Positions 8,244 through 53,810 of a DNA stretch of 64,000 nt are shown here, piece after piece; the first letter of the stretch is position 1, and each line of letters begins with the position of its first letter. The stretch is from NCBI GenBank assembly GCA_905339295.1, contig CAJPFI010000024.1, positions 1 to 64,000 of the forward strand. The letters are read 5' to 3'. This DNA is from Burkholderiales bacterium. GTDB lineage: Bacteria > Pseudomonadota > Gammaproteobacteria > Burkholderiales > Casimicrobiaceae. Both the position numbers and the translations under genes were made by a program. The notes under the pieces were generated by a model. The model did not search any database, was not told where the DNA came from, and was given only the letters and a program-made list of their open reading frames with translations.

Positions 8244-8348
8244 CGGAAGGCGCGCCGGTCGCGGCAACCGGCGGCTCGCGGATTATAGGCGGACTGGCGG
8301 GGCCGTTCGCGTAGAATCCGCCGCTTCCCCCGAGGAACCCTTTCCCCG

Positions 8349-13936: not shown

Positions 13937-15610
13937 ATGTTGCGCGAAGACCTGAAAGTCGCCGAGGCGGCGTGGCGAGGCAGGCACGCCGCCGAGCTGG
14001 CCGACGCGGCGGCGACGCCCGCCCGGTGCGAGGACGGCCTGCCGCTGAAGGTCGTCTACACGCCGCTCGACCTCGAGGACGGGTCCGCCGACGTCGCCGG
14101 ATTCCCGGGCGAGTTCCCGTACACGCGCGGCAACGACGCCACCGGCTACCGCAGGAAGCTCTGGACGATCAGCCACTACGCCGGGTTCGGCAGCCCGCGC
14201 GAGACCAACGTCCTGTTCCGCAAGATGATCGACCACGGGGGCGTGCCGCCCTACATGGCGCTCGATCTCCCGACGCAGCTCGGGCTCGATCCGGACGATC
14301 CGATGGCGGCCGGCGAGGTCGGCCTCACCGGCACGTCCATCGCGTCGTTGCGCGACTGGGAAACGATCTTCGACGGCATCGCCCTCGAGAGCACGTTCGT
14401 CGGCACGGTGATCAACGCGCCGGCCGCCGTGATCCTCGCGATGCACATCGTGCTCGCGCAGAAGCAGGGGGCGGACCTCGCCAAGGTGCGCGGCAACCTG
14501 CAGAACGACATCCTCAAGGAGTTCACGGCGCGCGGGAATTTCATCTTCCCGGTCGCCCCTTCGCTGCGGCTCGTCACCGACACGGTCGAGTACTGCGCGC
14601 GACACCTGCCGTCGTTCTGGCCCCTCAACGTCACGGGCGGCCATTTCGCCGAGGCGGGCGCCGACCGCGTCCACGAGGTGGCCTTCGCCTTCGCCGACGC
14701 GTTCACCTACATCGAGCGCCTCCTCGAGCGCGGCGTGCCGATCGACGCGTTCGCCAGGAACATGTTCTTCCTGATGAAGACCAACCACTTCGACCTGTTC
14801 GAGGAGGCGGCGAAGTTCCGGGCGATGCGCAGGATCTGGGCGACGCGTCTGCGCGACCGCTACGGCGCGCGCGACCCGGAGAGCCTCAAGTGCAAGGTGC
14901 TCGGACACAGCGGCGGCTCGCAGATGACGCGCGAGCGGCCCGAGCTCAACATCGCGCGCACGACGCTGGCGTGCCTCGCCGGTGCGCTCGGCGGCATCCA
15001 GCTGATCGGGCTGCGCACGATGGACGAGGTGTTCGGCATCCCGACCGAGAAGTCCGAGATGATCGCGATCGGCACCCAGCACGTCGTCGCTCACGAGACG
15101 GGCGTGCCCGACGTCGTCGACCCGCTCGGCGGCTCGTACTACGTCGAGTCGCTCACCCGCGAGTTCGAGGCGCGCGTCCAGGCGGAGCTCGACCGCATCG
15201 AGAGCGAGGGCGGCGTGGTCCGCGCGATCGAGACCGGCTCGATCAGACGCGAGATCGCCCGGGACGCCTACGAGGCGCAGCGCGCGGTCGAGCGCGGCGA
15301 CAAGGTGAAGGTCGGGGTCAACAAGTACCGCATCGACGAGGTCGAGCCGCCGCGCCGGCCCTACAAGCTCGATCCCGCCGAGGAGGGCCGCCGCGTGGAG
15401 GACGTGCGCGCGGTCCGCCGCGAGCGCGACAACGCGACCGCGATGGCCGCGCTCGAGGAATTGCGCCGCGTCGCCCGGATGCCCGAGGGCAGCGACAGCA
15501 ACCTCATGGGACCGATCATCGAGGCGGTCCGCGCGTACGCGACGATGGGCGAGATCTGCGGAGCGCTGAAGGACGTGTTCGGCGAGTACGTCGAGCGCGG
15601 GCGCGTCTGA
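13937..15610 (+). CDS. B12-dependent acyl-CoA mutase, large (substrate-binding) subunit, divergent
   Basis: A stand-alone 557-residue catalytic subunit of the methylmalonyl-CoA mutase superfamily, which moves a carbonyl-CoA group by radical chemistry. FPYTRGN, WTISHYAGFGS, the GGHFAEAG histidine (His236, equivalent to His244 of the Propionibacterium enzyme) and VDPLGGSYYVESLT mark the barrel. Tyr71 and Arg199 align with Tyr89 and Arg207, the pair that binds the free carboxylate of methylmalonyl-CoA. 2-Hydroxyisobutyryl-CoA and isobutyryl-CoA mutases have Gln at the Arg position. Two features are unusual: the normal TIRQ reads TISH, and the HTNxxDEA loop reads IGLRTMDEV. The substrate is probably a branched dicarboxylic acyl-CoA. 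The B12 subunit gene follows after 11 bases. Confidence 0.85.
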   Translation: MLREDLKVAEAAWRGRHAAELADAAATPARCEDGLPLKVVYTPLDLEDGSADVAGFPGEFPYTRGNDATGYRRKLWTISHYAGFGSPRETNVLFRKMIDHGGVPPYMALDLPTQLGLDPDDPMAAGEVGLTGTSIASLRDWETIFDGIALESTFVGTVINAPAAVILAMHIVLAQKQGADLAKVRGNLQNDILKEFTARGNFIFPVAPSLRLVTDTVEYCARHLPSFWPLNVTGGHFAEAGADRVHEVAFAFADAFTYIERLLERGVPIDAFARNMFFLMKTNHFDLFEEAAKFRAMRRIWATRLRDRYGARDPESLKCKVLGHSGGSQMTRERPELNIARTTLACLAGALGGIQLIGLRTMDEVFGIPTEKSEMIAIGTQHVVAHETGVPDVVDPLGGSYYVESLTREFEARVQAELDRIESEGGVVRAIETGSIRREIARDAYEAQRAVERGDKVKVGVNKYRIDEVEPPRRPYKLDPAEEGRRVEDVRAVRRERDNATAMAALEELRRVARMPEGSDSNLMGPIIEAVRAYATMGEICGALKDVFGEYVERGRV

Positions 15611-15621
15611 GGGAAACGGCG

Positions 15622-16032
15622 ATGGACAAGCGAGTACCCCGAGTCCTGATGGGCAAGCCCGGGCTGTGCGGTCACGACCGCGGCATCATGCTCGTCATCA
15701 TGGCGCTGCGCGACGCCGGCATGGAGGTGATCTACTCCGGCCGGCACAATTCGCCCGAGCAGCTGGTCGACATCGCCGTGCAGGAGGATGTCGACGTGCT
15801 CGGCGTCTCGATCCTGTCCGGCGCCCACATGGCGCTGTGCGCCCGCATCGCGGAACGGCTGAAGGAACAGGGCGCCGGCGACATCGTCCTGCTCGCCGGC
15901 GGCTTCATCCCGCCGGAGGACATCCCCGCCCTGAAGGCGCTGGGCGTGCGCGAGGTGTTCACCGAAGGGGCGAGGCTCGACGACGTCGTCGCGTTCGTCC
16001 GCCGCGCCAGCGAGGAGCGGCTGCCGGCATGA
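15622..16032 (+). CDS. B12-binding small subunit of acyl-CoA mutase 1, with CxHxxG in place of DxHxxG
   Basis: 136-residue cobalamin-binding domain protein, the partner of the upstream large subunit. It has the usual start (RVLMGKPGL), the B12 lower-ligand motif with His18 and Gly21, GVSILSGAH in place of the common GVSxLAAGH, and LLAGGFIPPEDIPALKALG. The motif reads CGHDRG: Cys16 (codon TGC, 15667-15669) stands where nearly all B12 mutases have the aspartate that hydrogen-bonds the cobalt-ligating histidine. The paralogous subunit at 55499-55930 keeps the aspartate. The gene overlaps the next ATG by four bases. Confidence 0.88.
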   Translation: MDKRVPRVLMGKPGLCGHDRGIMLVIMALRDAGMEVIYSGRHNSPEQLVDIAVQEDVDVLGVSILSGAHMALCARIAERLKEQGAGDIVLLAGGFIPPEDIPALKALGVREVFTEGARLDDVVAFVRRASEERLPA

Positions 16033-17561
16033 ACATCTCCGAGTGGCTGGTCCGCAACGCGGCCCGCGATCCCGCCGGTCCGGCGATTCATTTCGAGGGC
16101 CGCACGATCACGCACGGCGAGCTCGCCTCGCGCGTCGAGGCGTTCGCGTCCGCGCTCGCCGCGCTGGGCGTCGGCCCCGGGGACCGCGTCGGGCTGTTCC
16201 TCGCCAACTGCCCCGAGTTCCTGATCGCCCGCTGGGCGGCGATCCGTCTCGGCGCCGCCGCCGCGCCGATGAACGTGATGTTCCAGGCGCGCGAGGCGCA
16301 GTACGTGCTGAACAACGCCGCGCCGCGCGTGCTCGTCACCGAGTCGTCGCAGCTTCCGCTCGTCGAGCAGGTCTGGCCCGACTGCCCGCACCTCGCCCAC
16401 CTCGTCGTCACCGACGCCGCGATCCACGGCGCGCACTCGTTCGCGACGCTCGAGCGCGAGCATGCGGGACGCAGCGTGCCGATGCACGACTGCGGCCCCG
16501 ACGACGTCTGCGACCTCTACTACACGTCGGGCACGACCGGGCGGCCGAAGGGCGTGATGTGCTCGCACTTCAACTTCGAGAGCCTGCTGCGCTACGAGCA
16601 GCTCATATGGAACATGGGGCCGTCCGACCACACGATCGTCGCGCTCCCGCTGTTCCACGCGAAGGGCCTCATCATCCCGTGCCTGCTCGCGACCTACGTC
16701 GGCTGTCCCCAGACGCTGCTGCGGCGCTGGGACACGCGCGCCGTGCTCGAGCTGATCGAGCGCAACAAGGTCACGTTCTTCGCCGGCGTGCCGACGATGT
16801 ACGCCTACCTCAACGCCTTCGAGGACTTCGAGCGTTACGACATCGGCTCGCTCCGGATCTGCCGCGTCGGCGGCGCCCCCATGCCCGTCGAGATGCAGCG
16901 CGTGTTCGAGCGGCGCACCGGCGCCGCGATCATCGAGGGTTGGGGCTGCACCGGCTGGACCGGGACCTCGAACCCGCTCGACGGCGACCGCGCGATCGGG
17001 TCGATCGGCAAGGCGCTGGGCGAGCTCGACCCGTCGATCCGCTGCGAGATCCGCATCGTCGACGACGCCGGAGCCGACGTGGCCCCCGGCGGCGAGGGCG
17101 AGGTCGTCATCCGCGGCGACCAGATCCCGAAGGGCTTCTGGCGCATGCCGAACAAGACGGCGTCGGATTATCGCGCCGGGTGGTTCCACACCGGCGACAT
17201 CGGCCGGCGCGACGAGCGCGGATTCATCTTTCTCGTCGGACGCAAGGACGACCTGATCATCACCGCGGGCTTCAACGTCTACCCGCGCGAGGTCGAGGAG
17301 GTGCTCTATGCGCATCCGTCGGTGGACGACGTCGCGGTCGTCGGCGTTCCCGACGGCGACAGGGGGCAGTCGATCAAGGCGTTCGTCGTGCGCAAGCCCG
17401 GCACCGATGCGAGCGAGGCCGCGCTGATCGAGCACTGCCGCTCGCAGCTCGCGAAGTACAAGGCGCCGCGCGCGGTCGAGTTCCTCGACGCGCTGCCGAA
17501 GACCGCGTCCGGCAAGGTTCAGCGCTTCCTGCTGACCGGCACGCCACCCGGCCGGGGATGA
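16029..17561 (+). CDS. Acyl-CoA synthetase (AMP-forming)
   Basis: Activates a carboxylic acid to its CoA thioester through an acyl-adenylate. The 510-residue ANL enzyme shows the P-loop-like motif YYTSGTTGRPKGVM, the A5 region EGWGCTGWTGTSNP, the A7/A8 motifs WFHTGDIGRRDERGF and GRKDDLIITAGFNVYPREVE, and the catalytic lysine in PKTASGKVQR. The A5 motif, normally YGxTE, reads WGCTGW, suggesting an unusual acid pocket. Its place between the mutase and the dehydrogenase suggests it makes the CoA ester that the mutase or dehydrogenase uses. It overlaps the B12 subunit gene by four bases. Confidence 0.88.
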   Translation: MNISEWLVRNAARDPAGPAIHFEGRTITHGELASRVEAFASALAALGVGPGDRVGLFLANCPEFLIARWAAIRLGAAAAPMNVMFQAREAQYVLNNAAPRVLVTESSQLPLVEQVWPDCPHLAHLVVTDAAIHGAHSFATLEREHAGRSVPMHDCGPDDVCDLYYTSGTTGRPKGVMCSHFNFESLLRYEQLIWNMGPSDHTIVALPLFHAKGLIIPCLLATYVGCPQTLLRRWDTRAVLELIERNKVTFFAGVPTMYAYLNAFEDFERYDIGSLRICRVGGAPMPVEMQRVFERRTGAAIIEGWGCTGWTGTSNPLDGDRAIGSIGKALGELDPSIRCEIRIVDDAGADVAPGGEGEVVIRGDQIPKGFWRMPNKTASDYRAGWFHTGDIGRRDERGFIFLVGRKDDLIITAGFNVYPREVEEVLYAHPSVDDVAVVGVPDGDRGQSIKAFVVRKPGTDASEAALIEHCRSQLAKYKAPRAVEFLDALPKTASGKVQRFLLTGTPPGRG

Positions 17562-17562
17562 C

Positions 17563-18738
17563 ATGTACGCGAAGAATCCCCGCTGGTTCCTGACCGAGGA
17601 GCAGGATGCGCTGCGCATGAGCGTCGCGCGGCTCGCCCGCGAGCGCGTGGCGCCGCGCGCCGCCGAGGTCGACGCCACCGCCGCGTACCCGCAGGACATC
17701 TTCGAGCTGCTCGCGCAGAACGGGCTCACCGGCATCACGATTCCCGAGCGCTACGGCGGCGCGGGCGCCGGCCTGCTCGAGCTCTGCATCGTCGTCGAGG
17801 AGCTCGCCAAGGTCTGCACGACGACCGCGCTGATGCCGGTGATGTCCAACATCGCCGGCGTCATGCTCCTGCGCTTCGGAAGCGACGAGCAGAAGTCGAC
17901 GCTGCTTCCGAGGCTCGCGCGCGGCGAGTACCGGTTCTCGAACGCGTTGACGGAGGCGGATGCCGGGTCGGACGCGGCGTCGATCCGGAGCAAGGCGGTC
18001 GCGACGGCCGACGGCTACGAGATCACCGGCGCGAAGTCCTACATCACAGGCACGACGCTGTCGGACATCTTCATCGTGTTCGCGAAGCACGTGGACGGCG
18101 ACGCCGCCGGTCGCGTGTCGGCCTTCCTCGTCCCGCGCGACCGTCCGGGCATCACGGTCGGGCCGCTCGAAAAGAAGATGGGGATCCGCGGCATGCCGAC
18201 CGGCGGACTCTTCTTCGACAGGGTCACGGTGCCGCGCGACGCGCGCCTGGGCGCCGAGGGCCAGGGACTGTCCGTCCTGCTGAGCTCGATGACCGGCAAT
18301 CGGCCGGCGATCGGCGCCCGCGGCGTGGGTCTCGCCCAGGGCGCATTCGAGATCGCCGTCGACCACTGCCTCAGCCGGAAGATGCTGGGCGGCACGCTGA
18401 TGGACCTCCAGGGGCTCCAGTTCAAGCTCGCCGACCTGGCGATCGCGATCGAGGCGTCGCGCCAACTCGTCCACGCGGGCGCGCGGCTCGTCGACCGGGG
18501 CGTGGCCACGAAGGACCTGATGGGGATGCTCGCGATGGGCAAGTGCCTCGCGACCGACACGGCGATGCAGGTCGCGATCGAGGCGGTCCAGTGCCTCGGC
18601 GCCACCGGCTATTCCAGCGATGCTCCGGTCGAGCGTCTGATGCGCGACGCCAAGCACCTGCAGCTCGTCGACGGATCCAACGAGATTCAGCGCGTGCTGA
18701 TCGGTCGCGCGCTAAGGGAGTGGCGCACGCATGGATAA
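17563..18738 (+). CDS. Acyl-CoA dehydrogenase with Asp at the usual catalytic Glu position
   Basis: FAD flavoprotein that introduces a double bond next to a CoA thioester. The 391-residue chain has the family layout: ITIPERYGGAGAG, the flavin motif FSNALTEADAGSDAASI, YITGTTLSD, RQ-type helix and the C-terminal LVDGSNEIQRVLIGRAL. In most family members the segment reads YEGTxxIQR with Glu as the base; here it is VDGSNEIQR, with Asp370. No glutamate is seen at the alternative isovaleryl-CoA dehydrogenase position either. Asp is reported in dehydrogenases of cyclic acyl-CoAs. Start lies two bases after the synthetase stop; the next gene overlaps by eight bases. Confidence 0.9.
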   Translation: MYAKNPRWFLTEEQDALRMSVARLARERVAPRAAEVDATAAYPQDIFELLAQNGLTGITIPERYGGAGAGLLELCIVVEELAKVCTTTALMPVMSNIAGVMLLRFGSDEQKSTLLPRLARGEYRFSNALTEADAGSDAASIRSKAVATADGYEITGAKSYITGTTLSDIFIVFAKHVDGDAAGRVSAFLVPRDRPGITVGPLEKKMGIRGMPTGGLFFDRVTVPRDARLGAEGQGLSVLLSSMTGNRPAIGARGVGLAQGAFEIAVDHCLSRKMLGGTLMDLQGLQFKLADLAIAIEASRQLVHAGARLVDRGVATKDLMGMLAMGKCLATDTAMQVAIEAVQCLGATGYSSDAPVERLMRDAKHLQLVDGSNEIQRVLIGRALREWRTHG

Positions 18739-20122
18739 CCAGAGACCGGCGACGCTGTCGGAGTCGTTGTGGCGCCGGGCGAGCGCGTTGCGCTACGACG
18801 CCCTGCCCGCCCCCGTCGTCGACAAGATCAAGGATCTCGCGCTCGACACGCTCGGCGTCGCGCTGGGGTCGGCCCGGCTCGACTTCGGCGTCGCGACGCG
18901 CGCGCTCGTGCGCTCGTGGGAAAGCGCGGGGGGCGCGAGCGTCTGCGGCGAGCCGCTCCGCGTGCCCGCCCACGCCGCCGCGCTCGTCAACGGCGTGCTC
19001 GCGCACGGCCAGGACTTCGACGACACGCACACCGAGTCGGTCACGCATCCGAGCGCGTGCATCGTGCCGGCCGCGCTCGCGGTGGCCGAGTCGCGCGGCG
19101 CCAGCGGCCGCGACGCGATCCTGGCGATGGCCGCGGGCTTCGAGTCGATGATCCGGCTCGCGCTGCCGGCGCGCAACCGGTTCCACCTGCGCGGGTTCCA
19201 CACGACCTCGATCGCGGGCACGTTCGCCGCCGCCGTCGTCGCGTCGAAGCTCGGCGCGCTGGACGACGCCGCAGCCGCGAACGCGATCGGCGTCGCCGGC
19301 AGCTTCACGAGCGGACTGCTCGAGTGCGTCCCCGCAGGGGCCGGCTCGAAGCGCCTGCACGCCGGCTGGGCCGCGATGGGCGGCATCATGGCGGCGGATT
19401 TCGCGGGCCGGGGACTGACGGGACCCGCGACGGTGTTCGAAGGCAGGCTCGGCGTGTTCCATTCCTTCCTGCGCGGCGAGTCGATCGCCGTCACGGAGAT
19501 CCTCGACGGGTTCGGCGTCGACTGGACGCTGCTCGACACGCGGCCGAAGCTCTACCCGTGCTGCCACTACCTGCAGTCGTTCATCGACTGCGCGCGCCGG
19601 CTGCGCGACGAGCGCGGCGTTCGCGCCGCCGACGTCGCGGCCGTCCGCTGCCGCGTCGCCGAAGGCTCGGTCAACATGATCTGCACGCCGTGGGCCGCGA
19701 AGCAGGCGCCACGCGACGCCTACGAGGCGAAGTTCAGCCTCCCCTTCGCCGTGGCGATCGCGCTGCACGACGGGCGCGCAGGCACGTCGGAATTCACGCT
19801 GGACAATGCGCGGCGGCCCGAGATCGCCGCGCTGATGGCGCGCGTGACGCACGAGGTCGATCCCGCGTTCAGCGTCAAGGACATGCCGGGCGACGTCGAG
19901 GTCGTGCTCGCGGACGGGCGCACCGAGCGCTGCGTGCAGCCCCGCGTGCGCGGCGATCGCGGCGCCCCGGTGTCGCGCGCCGAGCTCCTCGACAAGTTCC
20001 ACGACAACCTGCGCCCCACGCCGTTCTCGCATCGCGCGGATGCGATCGCCGCGACCGTGCTCGGCCTCGACACGCAACGGGACCTCGACGCGCTGGGCGC
20101 GCTCCTGCGCGGCGCGGAATGA
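18731..20122 (+). CDS. MmgE/PrpD family protein 1
   Basis: 463-residue member of the family that contains 2-methylcitrate dehydratase PrpD and cis-aconitate decarboxylase. It has the conserved HGQDFDDTHTESVTHPS segment, GSFTSGLLECVPAG followed by KRLHAGWAA, and the cysteine-containing LYPCCHYLQSFID near residue 275. These enzymes add or remove water or CO2 from polycarboxylic acids, or epimerise them. Because its neighbours are an acyl-CoA synthetase and a mutase whose substrate residues suggest a dicarboxylic CoA ester, a branched di- or tricarboxylate is a reasonable substrate; the exact reaction is unknown. Overlaps both neighbours (8 and 4 bases). Confidence 0.85.
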   Translation: MDNQRPATLSESLWRRASALRYDALPAPVVDKIKDLALDTLGVALGSARLDFGVATRALVRSWESAGGASVCGEPLRVPAHAAALVNGVLAHGQDFDDTHTESVTHPSACIVPAALAVAESRGASGRDAILAMAAGFESMIRLALPARNRFHLRGFHTTSIAGTFAAAVVASKLGALDDAAAANAIGVAGSFTSGLLECVPAGAGSKRLHAGWAAMGGIMAADFAGRGLTGPATVFEGRLGVFHSFLRGESIAVTEILDGFGVDWTLLDTRPKLYPCCHYLQSFIDCARRLRDERGVRAADVAAVRCRVAEGSVNMICTPWAAKQAPRDAYEAKFSLPFAVAIALHDGRAGTSEFTLDNARRPEIAALMARVTHEVDPAFSVKDMPGDVEVVLADGRTERCVQPRVRGDRGAPVSRAELLDKFHDNLRPTPFSHRADAIAATVLGLDTQRDLDALGALLRGAE

Positions 20123-21372
20123 CCGCGCCGCCTCGACCGGCGTCGGGTGCGCCGAGGCTGCCGATCCGGACCGCGCAAGGCGTGCTCGCGGCGACGTTCG
20201 CGCTGCACGCGCTGCAGGCGAGCGCACCCTACGGCCTTCCGGCGCTGCTCCCGTTCGTCCGCAGCGACCTCGGGGGCGGGTACTTCGAGGCGGCGCTGGT
20301 GTCGTCGGCGTTCCTGCTCGGCATCGTCGCGGGCTCGCCGATCGCGGGCGGCGCGGTCGACGCGTTCGGCGTCCGGCGTTCGATCGTCGGCGGCACCGCG
20401 CTGGCCACGGTCATGCTGGCCCTGGTCCCCGGCGCGCCGTCGCTGTGGCTGGTGTGCACGCTGCTCGCCGTGGCGGGCATCGGCTACAGCGTCCTCACGC
20501 CCGGGACCAACACCGCGATGCTGGGCTGGTTCGCGCATCGCCATCGAGCGACCGCTGCCGGCATCAAGCAGACCGGCGTGAGCGCCGGCGGCATCGCCGT
20601 GGCGAGCTTCGTGCCCGCCGTGTCGCTCGCGTGGGGCTGGCAGGCGTCGTTTCACGTCATCGCGCTCTTCTACGCCGCGGCGTTCGCGATCGCGTGGATC
20701 ACGCTCCTGGACGGACCGTCCGGGCCCGCGCCCCGCGCCGCGCGGCCGTCCCTGCGCGATGCCATCGCGGCGATGCTCGGCGACCGGCCGACGATGCTGC
20801 TCGCGGCCGACGGCTTCCTGCGCGTCGGCATCCAGTACGCATTCCTCACCTACCTGATCGCCTACGCGATCGACAGCCTCCACTCGCCGGTCGCGTGGGG
20901 CGCGCTGATCTACGCGCTTGCGCACCTCTTCGGCGCGGTGGGCCGCGTCGGGTGGGGCTGGGCCAGCGACCGGGTCTTCCACGGGCGCCGGCGCGGGCCG
21001 TATGCCGCGATCGCGATCACCGCGGCCGCCGGGTTCGCGCTGCTCGCGCTCGCCGCGCCGCTGCACTGGGCGTTCCTGCTCGGCTCCGTCGCACTCCTCG
21101 GCCTGTCGGCCGCCGGATTCCAGGGCGTGGGCCTGTCGCTTCTCGCGGAGGTCGGCGGCGCCCGCGCTGGCACGGCCTCGGGACTGGTCAACGCGCTGTC
21201 GTTCCTCGGCGCGGCGGTGATGGTGCCGCTGTGCGGACAGTTGCTCGACGCGGGAGCGTCGTTCGCGACGCTGTTCGGCGTGCTGGCGGCGATGTCCGTC
21301 GTGACGGCGGCAATCACGCTTGCGTTGCCTTCCACGACGGACGGGGCGCCGGTCGTCCATGCTGCCCGCTGA
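20119..21372 (+). CDS. Major facilitator superfamily transporter
   Basis: 417-residue membrane protein with about twelve hydrophobic segments and the MFS loop motif between helices 2 and 3 (AGGAVDAFGVRRSIVGG region). It likely imports the organic acid used by this operon, judging only from its position. A second, unrelated uptake system (TAXI receptor plus TRAP permease) is encoded in the facing operon. Start overlaps the PrpD stop as ATGA, and the gene ends 14 bases inside the MeaB gene, so translation is coupled along the operon. Confidence 0.87.
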   Translation: MTAPPRPASGAPRLPIRTAQGVLAATFALHALQASAPYGLPALLPFVRSDLGGGYFEAALVSSAFLLGIVAGSPIAGGAVDAFGVRRSIVGGTALATVMLALVPGAPSLWLVCTLLAVAGIGYSVLTPGTNTAMLGWFAHRHRATAAGIKQTGVSAGGIAVASFVPAVSLAWGWQASFHVIALFYAAAFAIAWITLLDGPSGPAPRAARPSLRDAIAAMLGDRPTMLLAADGFLRVGIQYAFLTYLIAYAIDSLHSPVAWGALIYALAHLFGAVGRVGWGWASDRVFHGRRRGPYAAIAITAAAGFALLALAAPLHWAFLLGSVALLGLSAAGFQGVGLSLLAEVGGARAGTASGLVNALSFLGAAVMVPLCGQLLDAGASFATLFGVLAAMSVVTAAITLALPSTTDGAPVVHAAR

Positions 21373-22390
21373 CGAAACCTCTTCGGCGCGCAACGGTGTC
21401 GTGACCGCCGAGGACGCCGGCGGACTTGTCGCAGGGATCCGCGCCGGACGCGCGCGCGCCATCGGTCGCGCCATCAGCGAGGTCGAGCGCGATTCCGAGG
21501 TCGGACGCAGCGTCGTCGCCGCCCTCGCCGAGACCACGGGCCGCGCGCACCGCATCGGCATCACCGGACCGCCCGGCGCGGGGAAGTCGTCGCTCGTCGG
21601 CGAATTGATCCAGGCGTACGGGCGCCGCGGGCATCGCGTGGGGGTCATCGCGGTCGACCCGTCGAGCCGTGGGAGCGGAGGGGCGATCCTCGGCGATCGC
21701 GTGCGGATGGAGAAGCACGCCGGAGGCGGCGGCGCGTACATACGCTCGCTGGGCTCCCGAGGCGATACGGGCGGGCTCTCGCTCGCCGCATCCCGCGCCG
21801 CCGACATCCTCGACGCAGCCGGCTACGACCCGATCGTGATCGAGACGGTCGGCGCGGGCCAGGCCGAGATCGAGGTGGGCGAGGTCGCGCACACGCGCGT
21901 CGTCGTCCTGCCGCCCGGACTGGGCGACGAGGTCCAGGCCGTCAAGGCCGGCATGATGGAGATCGCCGACGTCTTCGTCGTCAGCAAGTCGGACCACGAA
22001 GGCGCGGAACGCACGCGCGCCGACCTGATCGCCTTTCTCCGGCTCCGCGGCGCCGACGCCCCCGAGATCCGCGTGATCGCGACCTCGATCGTCGACGGCG
22101 CGGGCGTCGATGCATTGGTCGATGCGCTGGTCGAGCGCGACGCACGCCGGCCGGCGGGCGTCGCCGACGGCGCGCTGGCGCGGCTCGTCGTCCGCCGCGC
22201 GCTGCGCATGACCGAGCTCGAGCTCGCCACGCTGCCGCAAGCCTGCCTGCAGGACCTCGGTGCCGGCGTGCGCCGCGGCGAGCTCACGCTCGCGCAGGCC
22301 GCTCGCGCCGCGCTCGACGGCGCACGCGCGACCGCGAATTCGCCGCCCTCCGCGCGATCTGCCGACGCTTCGGAAGCGCTGGACGGCTGA
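21359..22390 (+). CDS. MeaB/ArgK-type G3E GTPase, chaperone of mutase 1
   Basis: GTPase that loads and protects B12-dependent acyl-CoA mutases. The 343-residue protein has Walker A GITGPPGAGKSS, the metal-binding DPSSRGSGGAILGDRVRM, VIETVGAGQAEIEVG and LPPGLGDEVQAVKAGMMEIAD. The base-specificity motif, normally NKxD, reads SKSD here, while the second MeaB in the window has NKGD. Being the last gene of the operon that begins with mutase 1, it is most likely its dedicated chaperone. Start ATG 21359 is inside the MFS gene; a GTG a little downstream is an alternative. The C-terminal 20 residues are low complexity. Confidence 0.9.
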   Translation: MLPADETSSARNGVVTAEDAGGLVAGIRAGRARAIGRAISEVERDSEVGRSVVAALAETTGRAHRIGITGPPGAGKSSLVGELIQAYGRRGHRVGVIAVDPSSRGSGGAILGDRVRMEKHAGGGGAYIRSLGSRGDTGGLSLAASRAADILDAAGYDPIVIETVGAGQAEIEVGEVAHTRVVVLPPGLGDEVQAVKAGMMEIADVFVVSKSDHEGAERTRADLIAFLRLRGADAPEIRVIATSIVDGAGVDALVDALVERDARRPAGVADGALARLVVRRALRMTELELATLPQACLQDLGAGVRRGELTLAQAARAALDGARATANSPPSARSADASEALDG

Positions 22391-22550: not shown

Positions 22551-23537
22551 TCAGATGGCGCGCGCGAGCTCGAGCAGCAATCGGTGAACGGCCGGATCGA
22601 CCTCGACGTCGCCGTCGCCATGATCGCGCCGCGCCTGCTGCGAGCGATCGCCAGGCATTCGAACCTCGGCGTGTCCCACGGCGGGCCGAGAGCGCCGCAC
22701 GGCATCGCGCAGGGCCGCCACGCGGGTCTCGAACGCCTCCGCCGGCATCAGCAGGTCGGGCTTGAGCGCCAGGAAGAAGAACCCCGAGTTGCGGGTCTCG
22801 CGGAGCACCGGATCGCTTCCGGCGAGCATCCCGAAAAGCTGCGCGGCGAACGCCAGGCAACTCCCGCGCGGGCCGCCCCAGCTCAGGAACGCGCCGGCGA
22901 GCGCCGCCGCCGGATCGGTCGTCTCGCGCCCTTCCGCGTCGACCGCGGTGCCCGCATCGAGCGGCCGACCGGTCGCCTGCCGGAGCAGCGCCTCGCCCCA
23001 GGTGACGCCGCTGGTGCCGATGTCGAGGACCACCGGATCGTCGCCGCAGGGGAACGCGAACGCGACCGGATTCGTGCCGAGGATGCGCTCGGCGCCACCG
23101 AAGGGAGCCACGCGCGCCGTCGTGTTCGCCGTGTGCATCGCGACGAATCCCGCGCGCGCCATCCGCTCGACGTAGTACGCGAGCCGTCCGCTGAACCAGG
23201 TGTTGCACGCGCCGACCACCGCAATCCCCGAGGTACTGGCGATCTCGATCGCCTTGTCGGCCGCCGCCAGCGACACGACATAGCCGTTGACGTCGCCCCC
23301 GTCGATCGTGGCCGAAACCGGCGTCTGCGTCGTCACGCGGATCGCGCCGCCGGCCCCCTTCCTGACGAGCTCGGCGACGATCGCGGGCACGCGCGGGAGT
23401 CCCGCGAACGCGTGGCCGGTGACCATCGCGTCGACCAGGTGCGCGGCCACGTCCCCGGCGTGGGCGGGCGGCATGCCGTGGCGCACGAGCGCCGCGACGG
23501 CCAGCGCGCGGGCGTCAGCCTGCGACAGCCTGATCAT
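22551..23537 (-). CDS. Ldh2/MDH2-type NAD(P)-dependent 2-hydroxyacid dehydrogenase
   Basis: 328-residue oxidoreductase of the malate/L-lactate dehydrogenase family, which does not share the classical Rossmann-type LDH fold. Recognisable parts are HAFAGLPRVPAIV, VVGACNTWFSGRLAYYVERM, HTANTTARVAPFGGAERILG followed by TNPVAFAFPCGDDPVVLDIG, and a C-terminal segment with NSGFFFLALKPDLLMP. Members oxidise malate, ureidoglycolate, sulfolactate or similar acids, so the substrate is probably a 2-hydroxy acid from the catabolic cluster. It is the last gene of the reverse operon and overlaps the PrpD-like gene by 23 bases. Confidence 0.87.
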   Translation of the reverse strand: MIRLSQADARALAVAALVRHGMPPAHAGDVAAHLVDAMVTGHAFAGLPRVPAIVAELVRKGAGGAIRVTTQTPVSATIDGGDVNGYVVSLAAADKAIEIASTSGIAVVGACNTWFSGRLAYYVERMARAGFVAMHTANTTARVAPFGGAERILGTNPVAFAFPCGDDPVVLDIGTSGVTWGEALLRQATGRPLDAGTAVDAEGRETTDPAAALAGAFLSWGGPRGSCLAFAAQLFGMLAGSDPVLRETRNSGFFFLALKPDLLMPAEAFETRVAALRDAVRRSRPAVGHAEVRMPGDRSQQARRDHGDGDVEVDPAVHRLLLELARAI

Positions 23538-24903
23538 GCTTCGGCCCGGTGCCGGTCCACGCATGCGCGCGCCGGCGTTCCAGCGCGTCGAGCAGCGGCG
23601 CGAGCGTGGGCTGCCGCTCGAGATCGAGGACGAAATCGCGCACCCGGTCGGTGTCGTCGCCCAGCACCGGGCCCGCCAGCTCGTCGTACTTGCGGCACAG
23701 CGCCTCGGGCGCGACGGGATTCTCCGGCTCGCCTGCCGGATAGTCGAGCGAGAGCGTGTGCACGCCCGACGCCGTCTCGATCGCAACGCGCGATGCCCGC
23801 TTCGCAGGGTAGCCGGCATCCAGCGCCGGATCGTACAGCACCGCGATCCGGGCCATCAGCGCGCGGACGCGCGGATCTTCCAGCCTGCGCTGGGTGAACG
23901 CGAAGGCGCTCGTCTCGCCGTGCACCGCGGCGACGGCGATCGCGAACGCGATGCTGAACTGCGCCTGCGCGGGCGTCGCCGGATGCTCGATCTCGGCGGC
24001 GAGCGTGTAGCGGTCGACGTGGACCGACACCGAGCGAAGGTCCGCGGCCGGCGCCGGGTGCTGCCGGCTGAGCGCGAGGAACGCGTCGAGCGGCGCATGG
24101 TTGCCGCGGCAGCCGCCGTGCATCTTGACGTAGGTCCCGAGCATCCGCGGGACGGAAGGCTCCGGCACCACGCGCTCGCCGTTCGCGTACGCAGGGAAGA
24201 ACCCCTCCGCGAGAATCGACTCGTGCCCGCGCGCGCCGGCGGCGGCCATCAGCGCCGCGACGCGGCCCGCCTCGCAGCCCTGGGCGACCTGGAGCGGCTG
24301 CGTCGCCGACGCCCGCAGCGCCGCCTTGAGACCAGCGCCCAGGCTCGCCGCGATGGCGAGCGCGTGCATCGTCTCGGTTTCGGGGAGGCGGAGCAGCCGC
24401 GCGGTCGCCGCGGCGGACGCAAGGGGCGCGAGCACCGCCGTGCTCTGGAAACCGCGATCGACGATGGCGGGATACGCGCGCTCGCCCACGCGCAGGAACA
24501 CCTCGTAGCCGGACGCGACGGCCGCGAGCAGGTCGTCGGGCCGCGGAAGCGCCGCCCGCAGGCCGCCCGCCACGGTGAGCGCGGTGGGCGTGACCACGCA
24601 GGACGGATGGCCCCCGGTCGAGCGCGAGCCGTCCTCCATGTAGGCCGCGTGCGACATGAACACGTTCACGCGCAACGCGTCGGCGGTCGCGCGTTCCGCG
24701 CCCTCGAACCAGCTATGGGCGGGTCCCGGAGCGTCGAGCGCGCGCGCGAGACTCCGCCAGGTGCCGATCCGGTATCCCGCGCAGGCGCACCCGATGAGGT
24801 CGAGCACGCGCAGCCGGGTCGCCTCCCGCACCTTCGCATCGGGCGCGCCCGCCTCCGCCGCGCGCTGCGCGAGCGCGCGGACGTCCAGCGCGTCCGCCGT
24901 CAT
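23515..24903 (-). CDS. MmgE/PrpD family protein 2
   Basis: 462-residue second member of the MmgE/PrpD family in the island, clearly different from the first. The helical N-domain has LRVLDLIGCACAGYRIG. The normally DFDD-rich segment reads SHAAYMEDGSRSTGGHPSC. A later cysteine/histidine segment reads KMHGGCRGNHAPLDAFLAL, replacing the YPCC motif of protein 1. This variant is common among MmgE/PrpD proteins encoded beside TRAP transporters. The function may be dehydration, isomerisation or decarboxylation of an imported acid. Its stop-start overlap with the TRAP permease gene (ATGA) ties it to uptake. Confidence 0.83.
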   Translation of the reverse strand: MTADALDVRALAQRAAEAGAPDAKVREATRLRVLDLIGCACAGYRIGTWRSLARALDAPGPAHSWFEGAERATADALRVNVFMSHAAYMEDGSRSTGGHPSCVVTPTALTVAGGLRAALPRPDDLLAAVASGYEVFLRVGERAYPAIVDRGFQSTAVLAPLASAAATARLLRLPETETMHALAIAASLGAGLKAALRASATQPLQVAQGCEAGRVAALMAAAGARGHESILAEGFFPAYANGERVVPEPSVPRMLGTYVKMHGGCRGNHAPLDAFLALSRQHPAPAADLRSVSVHVDRYTLAAEIEHPATPAQAQFSIAFAIAVAAVHGETSAFAFTQRRLEDPRVRALMARIAVLYDPALDAGYPAKRASRVAIETASGVHTLSLDYPAGEPENPVAPEALCRKYDELAGPVLGDDTDRVRDFVLDLERQPTLAPLLDALERRRAHAWTGTGPKHDQAVAG

Positions 24904-26855
24904 CGCGCCGCGTGCAGCCGCGTCCGCCGCAGCGTCATCCACTGGCGCCCCAGCACGGCCAGGAAAGCGATCATGCCGACCGCATCGGAGACGTGCCCCG
25001 GAAAGGCCATCGCGCACCCGGCCGCGACCAGCACGATGCGTTCCCAGGTTGCGAGGGGCGCGATCAGGAAGCCGATCATGCCGGCGCCGTACGGAATCGC
25101 CGCCAGAAACAGCATCGCCCACGTGTATACGACGCTGCCGTTGAATCCGTCGGGCATCAGCATCGGCGTGTACACGAACATGAACGGCATCAGGTAGAGA
25201 AAGGACGAGAGCTTCATCGCATGGAAGCCGGTCCGATAGGGGTGCCCCCCCGCGATTCCCGCGCCCGCAAACGCGGCCATGCAAACCGGCGGAGTCACGT
25301 TCGAGCTCTGGCTGAACCAGAACACCACGAAGTGCGCTGCGATGAGCGGGACGCCAAGTTGTCCCAGCGCGGGCACCGCGAGCAGCGCCAGGATCAGGTA
25401 GTCCGCCGTCACCGTGATGCCCATGCCCAGGATGAAGGTCGCGAACAGCACGAGCAGCAGCGCCAGCCACACCATCCCGTAGGTCTGCGCCATCACGATC
25501 TCGGAGAATCGGAACGCCAGTCCGGTGAGCAGCGCGATTCCGACGATGATCCCGACCGGCCCGGCCGTCACGCCCACGATCAGCGACTTCTCGCCCCCGC
25601 TGGCGAGCCCGTCGTACAGGGCCGGGAAGAATCGGCGCACCTGGCCGCTCATCGCAAAGCGCGTGAACATGAGCGCGACGAAGCTCACGATCGCCCAGAA
25701 CGCGGCGAACGAAGGCGTGTAGCCCTCGAACAGGGTCACGAACAGCACGACCAGCGGCAGCAGGTAGTACCAGCCTCCGCGCACGACGGCCCCGATCGCA
25801 GGCCTCAGCGACTTCGGTATCGCACCCAGCCCCGAGCGGCCCGCTTCGAAGTGGACCATGACCAGCACGGAGAAGAAATACAGGATTGCCGGCACGAACG
25901 CGATCTTGACGATGTACGCGTACGGGACCTTGAGCATCTCCGCCATCAGGAACGCGCCGGCGCCCATCACCGGCGGCATGAACATGCCCCCGGTCGACGC
26001 TGCCGCCTCGACCGCACCCGCCACCTCGGGCCGGTAGCCCGTCTTCTTCATCAGCGGGATCGTGAACGTGCCCGTGGCGACGGTATTGGCGACGGCGCTG
26101 CCCGAGATCATCCCGAACATGCCGCTTGCCACGACCGCTGCCTTGGCGGGGCCGCCGCGAAAGCGGGCGGTCAGCGCCACCGGCAGGTCGATGAAGAAGC
26201 GTCCGGCGCCGAACTGCTCGAACAGCGCGCCCATGATGATGAACAGCATCACGTACGCGATGAACACGTAGGCGACGAAGCCGAAGATGCCGTTGGTGGA
26301 CGCGTAGCTGTCGCCGATCACCTGGCTGTAGCCGAACCCCTGGTGCGCGAGGACGCCCGTCGGCAGGACCTGCCCGAGAAGCGCGTAGACGAGCATGGCC
26401 AGCGCGAGGATCGGCAGGACCACGCTCATCGCGCGGCGGCACGCCTCCAGCACCAGCGCGATCGCGATCGTCCCGAGCACGAGGTCGCGGGGCGTCGCCG
26501 TGCCGGCGCGCCAGGCCATGTTCTCGTAGTCGACGATGAAGTTGCCGAACGCGAGCACCGTGAGCGCGATCAGGACGAGGTCCAGCGCGCCGGGGCGGTC
26601 GCGCGGCGCGTGCCGCGTCGCCGGATAGCGCAGGAAGACGAGCGTGAGGATCGCGAGCAGGAAGCCGCCGCGCAGCGTGGACGTGCCGACGTCGTCGACG
26701 AGGACGACGAGGATCAGCAGCAGGCTGTAAGTCGCGGCGAGCAGCTTGTAGGCATGCTTCCAGAACCCCTCGAATTCGCGGACCGCCCGGGTCCCTTCGG
26801 CCTCTTCGAGGAGCTGGAGAAAGCGCGACGGGCGTGCTCCTGAGGGCGTCGGCAT
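24900..26855 (-). CDS. TRAP transporter permease, fused small and large subunits (TAXI type)
   Basis: Inner-membrane secondary transporter of about 651 residues, working with the TAXI receptor encoded just upstream. It fuses a four-helix DctQ-like part with a DctM-like part; conserved DctM stretches include GMFGMISGSAVANTVATG and FTIPLMKKTGYRPEVAGAVE, then GGMFMPPVMGAGAFLMAE. The ATG at 26855 is preferred. Another in-frame ATG at 26918 would place a 10-base-pair hairpin inside the coding region and add a non-conserved Pro/Arg-rich leader. Overlaps the downstream PrpD-like gene by four bases. Confidence 0.92.
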   Translation of the reverse strand: MPTPSGARPSRFLQLLEEAEGTRAVREFEGFWKHAYKLLAATYSLLLILVVLVDDVGTSTLRGGFLLAILTLVFLRYPATRHAPRDRPGALDLVLIALTVLAFGNFIVDYENMAWRAGTATPRDLVLGTIAIALVLEACRRAMSVVLPILALAMLVYALLGQVLPTGVLAHQGFGYSQVIGDSYASTNGIFGFVAYVFIAYVMLFIIMGALFEQFGAGRFFIDLPVALTARFRGGPAKAAVVASGMFGMISGSAVANTVATGTFTIPLMKKTGYRPEVAGAVEAAASTGGMFMPPVMGAGAFLMAEMLKVPYAYIVKIAFVPAILYFFSVLVMVHFEAGRSGLGAIPKSLRPAIGAVVRGGWYYLLPLVVLFVTLFEGYTPSFAAFWAIVSFVALMFTRFAMSGQVRRFFPALYDGLASGGEKSLIVGVTAGPVGIIVGIALLTGLAFRFSEIVMAQTYGMVWLALLLVLFATFILGMGITVTADYLILALLAVPALGQLGVPLIAAHFVVFWFSQSSNVTPPVCMAAFAGAGIAGGHPYRTGFHAMKLSSFLYLMPFMFVYTPMLMPDGFNGSVVYTWAMLFLAAIPYGAGMIGFLIAPLATWERIVLVAAGCAMAFPGHVSDAVGMIAFLAVLGRQWMTLRRTRLHAAR

Positions 26856-26924: not shown

Positions 26925-27923
26925 CTACTTCAGCGCGGGCTCCGGGACCTTGACGTTGAGCTCGTTCCAGAACTTCGCGGCGCCCGGGTGCAGCGGGCCG
27001 ATGTTGCCCTCGAGCGGATTGGCGCGGTTCAGGTTGGCGCCCTTGAACGCCATCCCGACCTTGCTGACCGCGCCGTCCGAGTAGGCGAGGCGCGTGAACT
27101 CGTAGACGAGCTCGTTGGGAACGTCCTTGTGCGCGATCAGGAAGCCGGCGTTGCCGAACAGCGTGACGTCCCTCTCCTGCCCCTTGTAGGTGCCCGCCTT
27201 GACGACGACCTTCTGGTAGAACGGGTACTTGTCGAGGAACTTCGAGCGCTCGAGCTCGGGACCGAAGTCCACGAGGTTGATCGGACGGCTCGCCGCGACC
27301 TCGTCGACCACCGCGGCGGGCACCGAGCCCAGCCGGCTGAACGCCTGGATCTTGCCGTCGAGCAGCTGCGACGGATAGTCCTGGTGGCCTTCCATGCGGA
27401 TGCGCACGTCGTTCTTCATGCCGACGTGGTCGAGGAACAGCGACATCGCCATCGTCGACCCGGAGCCCGGGGCGCCGATCGCGAACGTCTGGCCCTTGAG
27501 GTCCGACGCCGTACGGATGTTGTCCTTCTGCAGCGCGATCACGTGGTTGGCCATCGGCGGCGTCACGACGCCGATCACGCGCCAGTTGCGCATCGGCTTG
27601 TCGAACGGCTTCTCGCCGTTCCAGGCCTGCGACATCGTCTCGGGCTGCGTCATGCCGAACTGCGCCTGCCCGGACTCGACCCGGCGCAGGTTCTCGAACC
27701 CGCCGCCCGACGTGCTGGGCGACACGCGCAGGATCTTCGAGTTCTCGTTGATGAAGTTCGCGAGCGGCGCCGCGATCATGTAGTAGGTGCCGGTCACGCC
27801 GCCGGTCGTGATCTGCGTGGCGGTCTGGGCGGCCGCGGTCGCGGCCCCCCCGGCAGCGCCGAGCGCGAGCGCCGCGGCGGCCAGTGCCTGGGCAGCGTTG
27901 CGGGCAAAGGGAATGCGACTCAT
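26925..27923 (-). CDS. TAXI family TRAP transporter solute-binding receptor
   Basis: Periplasmic receptor of 332 residues that delivers a small carboxylate to the TRAP permease. A signal peptide (hydrophobic ALAAAALALGAAGGAATAAAQ) precedes the family motif TGGVTGTYYMIAAPLANFI. Further conserved parts include SGGGFENLRRVESGQAQFGM and the APGSGSTM ligand loop. The start at 27923 has a very strong ribosome site (AGGAGGA). It is the first gene of the reverse operon; a divergent LysR regulator lies 171 bases away. Confidence 0.93.
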   Translation of the reverse strand: MSRIPFARNAAQALAAAALALGAAGGAATAAAQTATQITTGGVTGTYYMIAAPLANFINENSKILRVSPSTSGGGFENLRRVESGQAQFGMTQPETMSQAWNGEKPFDKPMRNWRVIGVVTPPMANHVIALQKDNIRTASDLKGQTFAIGAPGSGSTMAMSLFLDHVGMKNDVRIRMEGHQDYPSQLLDGKIQAFSRLGSVPAAVVDEVAASRPINLVDFGPELERSKFLDKYPFYQKVVVKAGTYKGQERDVTLFGNAGFLIAHKDVPNELVYEFTRLAYSDGAVSKVGMAFKGANLNRANPLEGNIGPLHPGAAKFWNELNVKVPEPALK

Positions 27924-28094: not shown

Positions 28095-29066
28095 ATGACG
28101 CTCAAGCACCTGGAAGCGCTCTACTGGGTCTGGCGACTCGGGAGCTTCACCGCGGCCTCCGAGCGGCTGCACTCGACGCAGTCGGCCATCTCGATGCGCA
28201 TCCGCGACCTCGAGGAGGCCCTCGGGCAGGAGCTGTTCGACCGCACGGCGCGTGCCGCCCGACTCACCGCCAAGGGCCAGGAGCTCGTCGGCTACGCCGA
28301 GCGGGTGATGGAACTGATGGCGGAGATCAAGGCGCGCATCGGCGACCCGACGATCGTGTCCGGCATCGTCCGCGTCGGCGTCACCGAGTACGTGGCGCTC
28401 ACCTGGCTTCCGGACCTGGTGCGCGAGCTCAACGCCCGCTACCCGAGGGTGACGCTGGAAATGAACGTCGACCTCACGCTTTCCTTGCTGGAGAAGCTGC
28501 GGGGCGGCGAGATCGACCTCGCCCTTCTCCCCGGCCCGATCGCGCAGCCCGGGCTTCGCAACATCTCGCTCGGGCTCGTCGAGTTCGCGTGGATGGCCAG
28601 CCCCGCGCTCAAGATTCCCGACCGCAGCCTGACGCCGCGCGACCTCGACAACTGGCCGATCCTGACGCTGTCGAAGACGTCCAATCTGTACGCGGTGCTG
28701 GAGCGATGGTTCGAGGAGTCCGGCGCCGTCGGACGCCGGACCGACACCTGCAACAGCCTTTCGGTCCTCGCGTCCTGGACGATCGCCGGGCTCGGCATCG
28801 GCTACCTGCCGGTCGCGCATTTCGGCCGCGACATCCGCGCGGGACGGTTGCGCATCGTCGACGTGACGCCGAGGCTGCCGGACATCGAGTACGTCGCGGC
28901 GCTGGACCTTCGCCATCCGCAGCCGCTCACGCAGTCGGTGGCGGAGCTCGCGGTGGCGGTCAGCGACTTCGAGCGCAGGACGCCCGGGCCCGCGGTTCCG
29001 GCGAAGCCGGCCCCGGCCGCGAACGGCCCGCGTCGAAAATCGGCGGCGGGCGGCCGTGCGCGCTGA
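28095..29066 (+). CDS. LysR-family transcriptional regulator 1
   Basis: 323-residue regulator with an N-terminal winged helix (LEALYWVWRLGSFTAASERL then HSTQSAISMRIRDLEEALG) and a C-terminal periplasmic-binding-protein-like effector domain starting near GIVRVGVTEYVAL. It is divergent from the TAXI-TRAP operon and separated by an AT-rich region with a 9+9 palindrome, so it very likely regulates that operon in response to the transported acid or a product. The last 25 residues are Pro/Ala/Arg-rich and not part of the fold. Confidence 0.92.
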   Translation: MTLKHLEALYWVWRLGSFTAASERLHSTQSAISMRIRDLEEALGQELFDRTARAARLTAKGQELVGYAERVMELMAEIKARIGDPTIVSGIVRVGVTEYVALTWLPDLVRELNARYPRVTLEMNVDLTLSLLEKLRGGEIDLALLPGPIAQPGLRNISLGLVEFAWMASPALKIPDRSLTPRDLDNWPILTLSKTSNLYAVLERWFEESGAVGRRTDTCNSLSVLASWTIAGLGIGYLPVAHFGRDIRAGRLRIVDVTPRLPDIEYVAALDLRHPQPLTQSVAELAVAVSDFERRTPGPAVPAKPAPAANGPRRKSAAGGRAR

Positions 29067-49321: not shown

Positions 49322-50412
49322 TCACTGCCTGCGGATGCCGAGCCTGCGCACGACGTCCCCCCACTTGGCGACATCGGCCCGGATCACCGCGTCGAACTCG
49401 ACGGGCGTCCCGCCCGCCGGCTCGAGCCCCTGCACGTCGAACCAGCGCCGCACCTCCGCGCTCGCGAGGATGGCGTCGACCGTGCGATCGAGCAGCGCGA
49501 CGATCGCCGCCGGCGTGCCGGCCGGCGCCACGAAGCCGAGCCAGGTGCCGACGTCGAGGGAAGGAAAGCCGGCTTCCGCGAGGGTCGGCACGTGCGGAAG
49601 CTGCCGCGAGCGGCGATCGCCGAGGATCGCCAGCGCGCGCACCTGGCCCGTCCGGATCGCGCCCAGCGACGCGGTGACGCTCGCGAGCAGCACGTGGACC
49701 TCGCCGGTGGAGATCGCCGCCATCGTCTGGCCGGATCCGCGGTAGGGAACGTGATGCAACGCGATGCCGGCCGTCGAGGCGAGCAGCTCGGTGTCGAGGT
49801 GGCTGGACGACCCGATCCCGGTCGACGCGTAGTTGAGTACGCCGGGACGAGCGCGCGCGTAGTCGACGAACTCGGCCAGCGTCGCCACCGGCAGCGCCGT
49901 GCTGACCAGCGCGACCTTGGTCTGCCAGGCGATGTTGACGACCGGAGCGAAGTCGGCGAGCGGATCGAAGGTCACGTTCGGCAGCACGCTCGGCGCCATC
50001 ACGTGCGTCGCGGTCGACGCGAGCAGCAGCGTGTGGCCGTCCGGCGCCGAGCGTTTCGCGGCGTCGGTGCCGATGAGCCCGTTCGCGCCCGGGCGGTTGT
50101 CGACGACGAACGGCGCGCCCAGCTCGGCTTCGAGACGCTCGCCCAGCATGCGCGCGACGAGGTCCGCGGTGCCGCCCACGGCCTGCGGCACGACGATGCG
50201 CACGCTGCGGGACGGCCACCCGTCGCCCGTGTGCCTGGCGCCGTCGCCGCGCTCGCGCGTCGCGCGTGCCGATCCGACCTGCGGCGCCGATGGCGCGGGG
50301 ACAATGCCGCCGGCGAGCGCGAGCGCGGCCAGCAACGCCCGGCGCCGCGACGCCGACGCCGGCCCGTCGGGTCGCGTCCGCGCGGTCGCGCCGCGGTCGG
50401 CACGCGCCGGCA

Positions 50413-50413: not shown

Positions 50414-52212
<1,799 letters not shown>

Positions 52213-53800: not shown

Positions 53801-53810
53801 CTCGACCGCG

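Follow-up and report, generated by a model that had tools for sequence, protein, structure and literature searches.

A predicted adenosylcobalamin mutase clade with cysteine for aspartate in the DxHxxG cobalamin motif

Introduction

According to the available text of one study, DxHxxG is the one motif in primary sequence that B12 methyltransferases and isomerases have in common, and in CobDH, Asp100 hydrogen-bonds ND1 of His102, whose NE2 ligates cobalt (PMC3727330). The accessible part of another gives the cobalamin fingerprint as DXHXXG-41/42-SXL-26/28-GG, describes His-Asp/Glu linkages of analogous function in MetH, MtaC, and methylmalonyl-CoA mutase (MCM), and states that the His-Asp linkage stabilizes Co(III) in methionine synthase (PMC4915002). 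Here we describe a gene pair for the large and small subunits of a predicted acyl-CoA mutase in which the motif aspartate is replaced by cysteine. The pair lies in a 64,000-nucleotide stretch of DNA (the window; contig CAJPFI010000024.1, positions 1 to 64,000) from a Burkholderiales bacterium of the Casimicrobiaceae (assembly GCA_905339295.1). An earlier note, made from the letters of this DNA alone, had suggested an undescribed mutase clade with modified cobalamin chemistry. By sequence, the kind of enzyme is a known one, and the Cys-His motif variant is real and recurs in related bacteria.

Two described mutases are closest to the window pair. 2-Hydroxyisobutyryl-CoA mutase (HCM; 4r3u) likewise has separate large and small subunits, and it is the best fold match of both window subunits and the best solved sequence for the large one. 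However, HCM has TMRQI, Gln for MCM Arg207, DxHxxG, QTAA, and HTN where the window pair has TISHY, Arg199, CxHxxG, HSGG, and GLR. MCM (1req; human MMUT) shares with the window the counterparts of Tyr89, Gln197, Arg207, His244, Glu247, and Glu370, whereas its solved catalytic chains hold both domains and carry TIRQY, Gln330, Asn366, Tyr243, and DxHxxG.

Two other systems are similar in setting or in proposed reaction. The methylsuccinate cluster, which we liken to the window by kind of gene, also contains MmgE/PrpD and acyl-CoA dehydrogenase genes and acts on a substituted succinate; its route, in the available text, runs via a CoA transferase, a hydratase, and a lyase, and we found no use of the word "mutase" there (PMC12290011). 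ActD/MatB, from the actinonin and matlystatin pathways, are described in the accessible portion of PMC5719088 as HCM-subclass enzymes whose proposed reaction turns hexylmalonyl-CoA, a substituted malonyl ester, into the substituted succinyl ester 2-pentylsuccinyl-CoA. Unlike the window genes, they belong to biosynthetic clusters, and we liken them by description, not by sequence.

Results

The small subunit departs from the cobalamin fingerprint at one residue

The small subunit reads K12-P-G-L-C16-G-H18-D-R-G21, with Cys16 at the position of the motif aspartate, as the earlier note had seen (GLCGHDRG). The rest of the fingerprint is kept, with 41 residues from G21 to S63 and 27 from L65 to G93; the published pattern fails at the aspartate only. 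Lys12 is also kept (GKPGLCGHDRG), and H18, G21, S63, G93, and G94 are invariant over 37 aligned small-subunit rows.

A phmmer search with the small subunit against the open frames of the collected loci gave 89 rows, or 75 distinct ones after removal of 14 same-locus duplicates. The motif position is Cys in ten, all within a single clade that includes the window pair, Asp in 64, and Glu in one. Sixty-three of the Asp rows have the full motif; in the other, the IcmF of the same genome, the Gly is misaligned. The small subunit of an eleventh clade member lies off its contig. Since all ten readable small subunits have Cys, encoded by TGC in nine and by TGT in one, we could rule out a sequencing error, which the earlier note had allowed for. 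A second cysteine, C73, is kept in the same ten proteins and occurs too in D-type rows (L010, L013, L019, L023, L025, L031, L033, and L091).

A degenerate DNA pattern for GLCGHDRG matched four of 339 genomes in a phylum sample, own genome included. The matches in G1041, G877, and G823 were rejected as chance: their frames are not B12-domain-like, and blastp with the window genes gave a best E of 0.046. As the pattern demands the exact octapeptide, other Cys variants would escape it. In the open-licence PubMed Central literature, we found no paper for CXHXXG, EXHXXG, or NXHXXG, and no matching paper describes a Cys variant of DxHxxG in its title or the start of its abstract.

Both subunits are predicted to keep mutase folds

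The family domains are present in the large subunit (PF01642, 8.7e-167) and the small subunit (PF02310, 6.1e-20). By domains, the pair belongs to the B12-dependent acyl-CoA mutase family, and by motif it is an Asp-to-Cys variant. The MCM equivalog NF006944/PRK09426, a two-domain model, scores 426 bits with the large subunit and 99.6 with the small one, below its cut-off of 876. Among solved proteins, the best sequence match of the large subunit is HCM, followed by MCM, while the small subunit matches the Aeropyrum mutase 2yxb about as well as HCM.

AlphaFold models of the single subunits without cofactor, built from the window proteins and their locus relatives only, had a mean predicted local distance difference test score (pLDDT) of 94.9 for the small subunit and 90.3 for the large one. 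With Foldseek, the small subunit matched that of HCM (4r3u) with a template-modeling (TM) score of 0.92 and a root-mean-square deviation (rmsd) of 1.0 A. The large subunit matched 4r3u with a TM score of 0.88 but an rmsd of 9.5 A over 553 columns; against IcmF entries the rmsd was 2.5-2.7 A. Mutase folds are kept in both predicted structures, which speak to fold only.

Adenosyl-contact positions have changed and active-site residues are retained

We compared the large subunit with MCM using the literature numbering, in which a residue number is the chain index plus 1. Six positions have changed: Arg87 to Ser79, Gln88 to His80, Thr195 to Asn187, Tyr243 to Gly235, Gln330 to His324, and Asn366 to Arg360. 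Six others are kept, with Tyr81, Gln189, Arg199, His236, Glu239, and Glu364 corresponding to MCM Tyr89, Gln197, Arg207, His244, Glu247, and Glu370. Each change and each retained residue is found in 10/10 clade rows. We take Tyr89, Gln197, Arg207, and His244 to be active-site residues of MCM, and the window protein has all four; at Gln330 and Asn366, which we take to be adenosyl contacts, it has His324 and Arg360 instead. The six changed positions, common to MCM and HCM, presumably sit near the CoA and adenosyl groups. The window protein also lacks the HCM pattern of Ile for Tyr89 and Gln for Arg207 seen in 4r3u, having Tyr81 and Arg199.

The earlier note had correctly read the change from TIRQ to TISH (T77-I-S-H-Y81, compared to TIRQY in MCM) and the retention of Arg199 and His236. 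Its counterpart of Tyr89 was wrong: Tyr71 is a separate, nearly invariant tyrosine, and the true counterpart is Tyr81. Its claim that HTNxxDEA is lost holds for HTN, which has become GLR, but the DE is kept (GLRTMDE compared to HTNxxDE in MCM), including the counterpart of Glu370. In bacterial MCM, Glu370 helps stabilize the dissociated radical pair, according to the available text of PMC4413051.

The cysteine marks an inner clade of a wider group

With the window counted, the clade comprises 11 large subunits from three families of one order. The relative from the window's genus (G049) is 90% identical and that from G003, in the same family, 75%; G483 and G526 belong to a second family, and six genomes across four genera to a third. 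The small subunits are 70-87% identical to the window's. T[IV]SHY is present in 11/11 large subunits and GLRTMDE in the 10/10 that reach the motif, and the window pair has the full combination of Cys, T[IV]SHY, HSGG, GLRTMDE, and a place in the one tree group.

Nei-Gojobori dN/dS was 0.08 (large subunit) and 0.13 (small subunit) against the G049 copy and 0.19-0.37 against the other eight relatives, figures that rest on dS of 0.5-1.2. By these ratios, the clade is under purifying selection. Because the frames are open and dN/dS is low, a pseudogene or decay was ruled out, as the earlier note had expected.

On a large-subunit tree of 68 of 96 rows (those omitted were 28 of the 36 MCM-like rows, and the midpoint root is for drawing only), all ten Cys rows fall into a single group with 100/100 support. 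With Cys in every readable small subunit, the distinct clade that the earlier note had supposed is thus borne out. The sister branch consists of two mutases from G713 and G483 (L100/L101), and the 12 rows group together at 100/99. These sisters are ~51% identical to the window protein and have DxHxxG and [LK]IRQY, yet GLRTMDE as in the clade. The wider group without Asn366 contains 21 rows (100/96), 22 with L020, which has a long branch (97/86), and 23 with L007 (90/93). Its 13 non-clade members, the tree groups nearest to the clade, are L007, L018, L019, L020, L023, L024, L025, L030, L031, L033, L091 (from the window's own genome), and L100/L101. They come from Actinomycetota, Planctomycetota, Bacteroidota, Rokuibacteriota, Pseudomonadota, Nitrososphaerota, and Thermodesulfobacteriota and keep Arg207 and Tyr89. 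Unlike the clade, they have Tyr at 243 (Phe in L020), and the small subunit encoded at each locus has DxHxxG (13/13). In L018, L019, L023, L024, L025, L030, L031, L033, and L091, from several phyla, QTSG/QTAG is GGGG or AGGG and Asn366 is Cys (Pro in L030), with Arg207 and DxHxxG kept.

HTN has been lost outside this group as well: L092, also from the window's genome, has Ser and lies on a separate long branch, and several other tree rows carry HTD. The earlier note had proposed checking whether Cys and HTN loss co-occur. All clade rows have both, but Asn366 is also missing from the 13 other members, which keep DxHxxG, and from L092. By sequence, the two features are nested, not co-extensive, and TISHY, HSGG, and Tyr243-to-Gly are what accompany Cys. 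On the simplest reading, Asn366 was lost first, and Cys, TISHY, HSGG, and Tyr243-to-Gly arose on the stem of the inner clade.

Own genome counted, matches were found in 1/369 genomes of the class at E ≤ 1e-165 and in 1/398 of the phylum at 1e-145. The order sample gave 4/399 at 1e-165 (own, G483, G526, and the sister in G713), the window's family 3/64 at 1e-150 (own, G049, and G003), the family of G483 2/4, and the family of G713 7/74 at 1e-145 (six clade members and the sister). For the larger samples, the rows shown have at most three candidates per genome scored, and absence from them is therefore not firm. In a scan of a contig collection, identity was at most 46% among the best 80 of 595 confirmed places, and plasmid records contained no match of at least 60% for either subunit.

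Gene neighborhood of the mutase pair

As the earlier note had described, the two genes are intact and adjacent, 11 bases apart, and open a seven-gene operon with its own MeaB (Table 1). All seven genes (13937-22390) lie on a single strand, and neighbors among the first six overlap or stand apart by no more than 11 bases. The MeaB protein scores above the TIGR00750 cut-off, and an adenosyltransferase gene is present elsewhere in the genome. No cobalamin riboswitch was found in the window at Rfam gathering thresholds.

Table 1. Mutase genes and neighboring features in the window
Feature	Positions	Strand	Remarks
Acyl-CoA mutase large (TIM-barrel) subunit	13937..15610	+	557 aa, intact; T77-I-S-H-Y81, R199, H236, H324, G358-L-R360-T-M-D-E364
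B12-binding small subunit	15622..16032	+	136 aa, intact; CxHxxG (C16, H18, G21); SxL, GG kept
Cys16 codon TGC	15667..15669	+	
AMP-forming acyl-CoA ligase	16029..17561	+	4-base overlap with small subunit
Acyl-CoA dehydrogenase	17563..18738	+	
MmgE/PrpD protein MmgEa	18731..20122	+	Closest solved relative iminodisuccinate epimerase 2hp0
MFS transporter	20119..21372	+	Among clade stretches read, present only in window and G049
MeaB/ArgK G-protein chaperone of mutase	21401..22390	+	Start codon uncertain
Ldh2-type dehydrogenase, convergent	22554..23537	-	Closest solved relative L-sulfolactate dehydrogenase 2x06
Second MmgE/PrpD, MmgE2	23518..24903	-	
TRAP transporter DctM	24903..26855	-	
NMT1_3 (TAXI-type) solute-binding protein	26928..27923	-	Adjoins DctM
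LysR regulator	28095..29063	+	

We compared neighborhoods over the 11 clade loci, window included, some of whose contigs end early. MeaB is present in 9/9 loci whose contig reaches its place, and MmgEa in 9/11, the contigs of the other two stopping before it. MmgE2 occurs in 6/11, LysR in 5/11, and Ldh2 and DctM in 4/11 each (window included in all four counts); the three other DctM homologues are 38-68% identical. Directly after the small subunit, where the window has its ligase and dehydrogenase genes, seven loci carry another MmgE/PrpD gene (24-27% identical to MmgEa), and in one locus this place is not visible. In L110, the only ligase is a distant one (28%) at the stretch's far end. Some third-family loci (L108, L110, and L111) have an Asp/Glu/hydantoin racemase family gene near the mutase, along with several TctC receptors and FAD-binding and NIPSNAP genes.

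The earlier note had counted DxHxxG homologues in an identical gene context as an objection to its proposal. Neither MeaB nor a close MmgEa homologue was found in the 19.9 kb read around either D-type sister. Both sisters carry a distant ligase (29-31%). L101 also encodes an enoyl-CoA hydratase, a UbiD protein, and, 6-8 kb away from its mutase genes, a distantly related MmgE (31%).

The best solved match of MmgEa is iminodisuccinate (IDS) epimerase (1e-39). MmgEa keeps 6/6 IDS-epimerase catalytic residues (H92, D95, H106, H157, K207, and K273), given for the epimerase as H85, D88, H99, H150, K198, and K266 in the available text of PMC12290011. According to the same text, a 1,4-dicarboxylate backbone is common to the substrates of characterized MmgE/PrpD enzymes, and one such enzyme, a methylsuccinate isomerase, uses the free acid. 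Among solved proteins, the ligase has malonyl-CoA synthetase entries (4fuq) as its four best matches; it falls below the cut-off of every NCBIfam model among the best 25 of 111 matched.

On plasmid 4 of Variovorax sp. WDL1 (L114, 8986-11737), adjoining MmgEa-like (50%) and MmgE2-like (46%) genes lie near a CoA-transferase gene and tricarboxylate-transporter receptors. Because no mutase is found in the 19 kb read there, the MmgEa/MmgE2 module can exist without this mutase. An unannotated Cupriavidus plasmid stretch (L123), examined as a copy of the methylsuccinate cluster, matches, of the window genes, the two MmgE only.

Other mutases in the same genome

A search with the window large subunit found five mutase genes in the genome (G000); judged by motif, none belongs to the classical MCM type. 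In the pair L092 (contig 21:58000-76000; small subunit 7570-7968, large subunit 8057-9709), the small subunit has ExHxxG (TTMEAHDRG), a second departure from DxHxxG in this genome. In the alignment, its large subunit has Val at Tyr89, Met at Gln197, a gap at Arg207, and Gly at His244. The window itself contains a second B12 mutase gene run on the minus strand (49325-55930). Its small subunit has DxHxxG, and its large subunit has Leu where MCM has Tyr89 and Asn where MCM has Arg207. The run also encodes a MeaB joined to a 4HBT thioesterase domain, an AMP ligase that carries a phosphopantetheine-attachment domain, and a TctC receptor.

Discussion

We propose, with a probability of about 40%, that these proteins form an undescribed AdoCbl (adenosylcobalamin) mutase clade in which a Cys-His pair stands in for the Asp-His relay and Arg for the adenosyl-contacting Asn. 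The clade would rearrange a substituted succinyl-CoA with retuned Co-C homolysis and be the core of an undescribed MmgE/PrpD-linked dicarboxylate catabolism. That the window pair is a working AdoCbl mutase for a dicarboxylyl-CoA seems probable, since the Glu370 counterpart is kept, the genome has an adenosyltransferase, and the operon has MeaB. The gene context, too, favors a dicarboxylyl-CoA. Three points make a substituted succinyl-CoA and the corresponding substituted malonyl-CoA our best guess for the substrate pair: Arg207 is retained, a glycine in place of Tyr243 would enlarge the pocket, and the neighboring genes suggest dicarboxylates.

Under this proposal, the cofactor would be bound base-off/His-on through His18, with Cys16 in the place of the Asp that forms a hydrogen bond to the second nitrogen of the cobalt-ligating His. 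The Cys16 thiol, or a thiolate near the retained Lys12, would make a partner of lower strength or different charge and should therefore alter His basicity, the Co-N bond, and cofactor redox and homolysis. MeaB would load and protect the cofactor. The operon as a whole may serve to break down a substituted succinate or a 1,4-dicarboxylate like it: the acid would enter via the TRAP (DctM/TAXI) or MFS transporter, MmgE/PrpD would adjust its stereochemistry or dehydrate it as the free acid, and the ligase would activate it to the CoA ester. The mutase would then rearrange the carbon skeleton of the dicarboxylic acyl-CoA, with later oxidation by the acyl-CoA dehydrogenase.

Several observations weigh against this proposal. 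Because six positions shared by MCM and HCM have changed, including loss of Arg87 and Arg for Asn366, binding of AdoCbl or CoA could be impaired or different, and retention of Arg207 is no proof of a dicarboxylic substrate. As judged from the loci, the pathway drawn above is not fixed across the clade, since ligase and dehydrogenase genes follow the mutase in 3/11 loci only (the window, L089, and L090). MmgE2 keeps 3/6 of the IDS-epimerase residues. The best NCBIfam model for the ligase is a long-chain fatty-acid ligase (447 bits, below the cut-off of 476), and the malonyl-CoA synthase model gives 376.5 bits against a cut-off of 558. The dS values behind the selection estimates also count here, as do the relatives themselves, which are assemblies with 2-9% estimated contamination; the clade covers ten besides the window.

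Cys16 could instead be neutral, a tolerated residue fixed once in an ancestor of an ordinary HCM/MCM-like mutase. Such an origin would fit the single tree group of the Cys rows, the retention of the other fingerprint residues, and the match of both predicted folds to known mutases. However, Cys persists in 10/10 even though small-subunit identity to the window protein has fallen to 70-87%, Asp or Glu occupies the position in all 65 remaining distinct rows, and the changes in the adenosyl pocket and the TIRQ loop are just as fixed. We therefore consider neutrality unlikely. The changes of Asn366 to Arg, Gln330 to His, and Arg87 to Ser, which lie around the adenosyl and CoA groups, raise the prospect that the fold has been repurposed without AdoCbl radical chemistry, as a CoA-ester-binding or regulatory complex or with another corrinoid state. 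The replacement of Asp by Cys, which alters the relay below cobalt, would fit as well. Since the counterparts of Tyr89, Gln197, Arg207, His244, and Glu370 are kept, MeaB is found in 9/9 reachable loci, and the genome has an adenosyltransferase, such a repurposing appears rather improbable.

It is also conceivable that Cys16, two residues from the cobalt ligand in 10/10 readable members, acts as a thiol redox or metal switch, becoming oxidized or nitrosylated, or binding a metal or cobalt, to turn the mutase off under oxidative conditions. A second cysteine, C73, is likewise kept in all ten, but it is not tied to Cys16, because D-type rows have it too. We regard a switch of this kind as very improbable.

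The role of the DxHxxG aspartate has been studied mainly with laboratory mutants. The natural, clade-wide Asp-to-Cys change, together with the D-type sisters at ~51% identity, offers an evolution-tested pair for studying how the His relay tunes Co-C homolysis. The linked genes point to an uncharacterized route for dicarboxylic acids in environmental bacteria.

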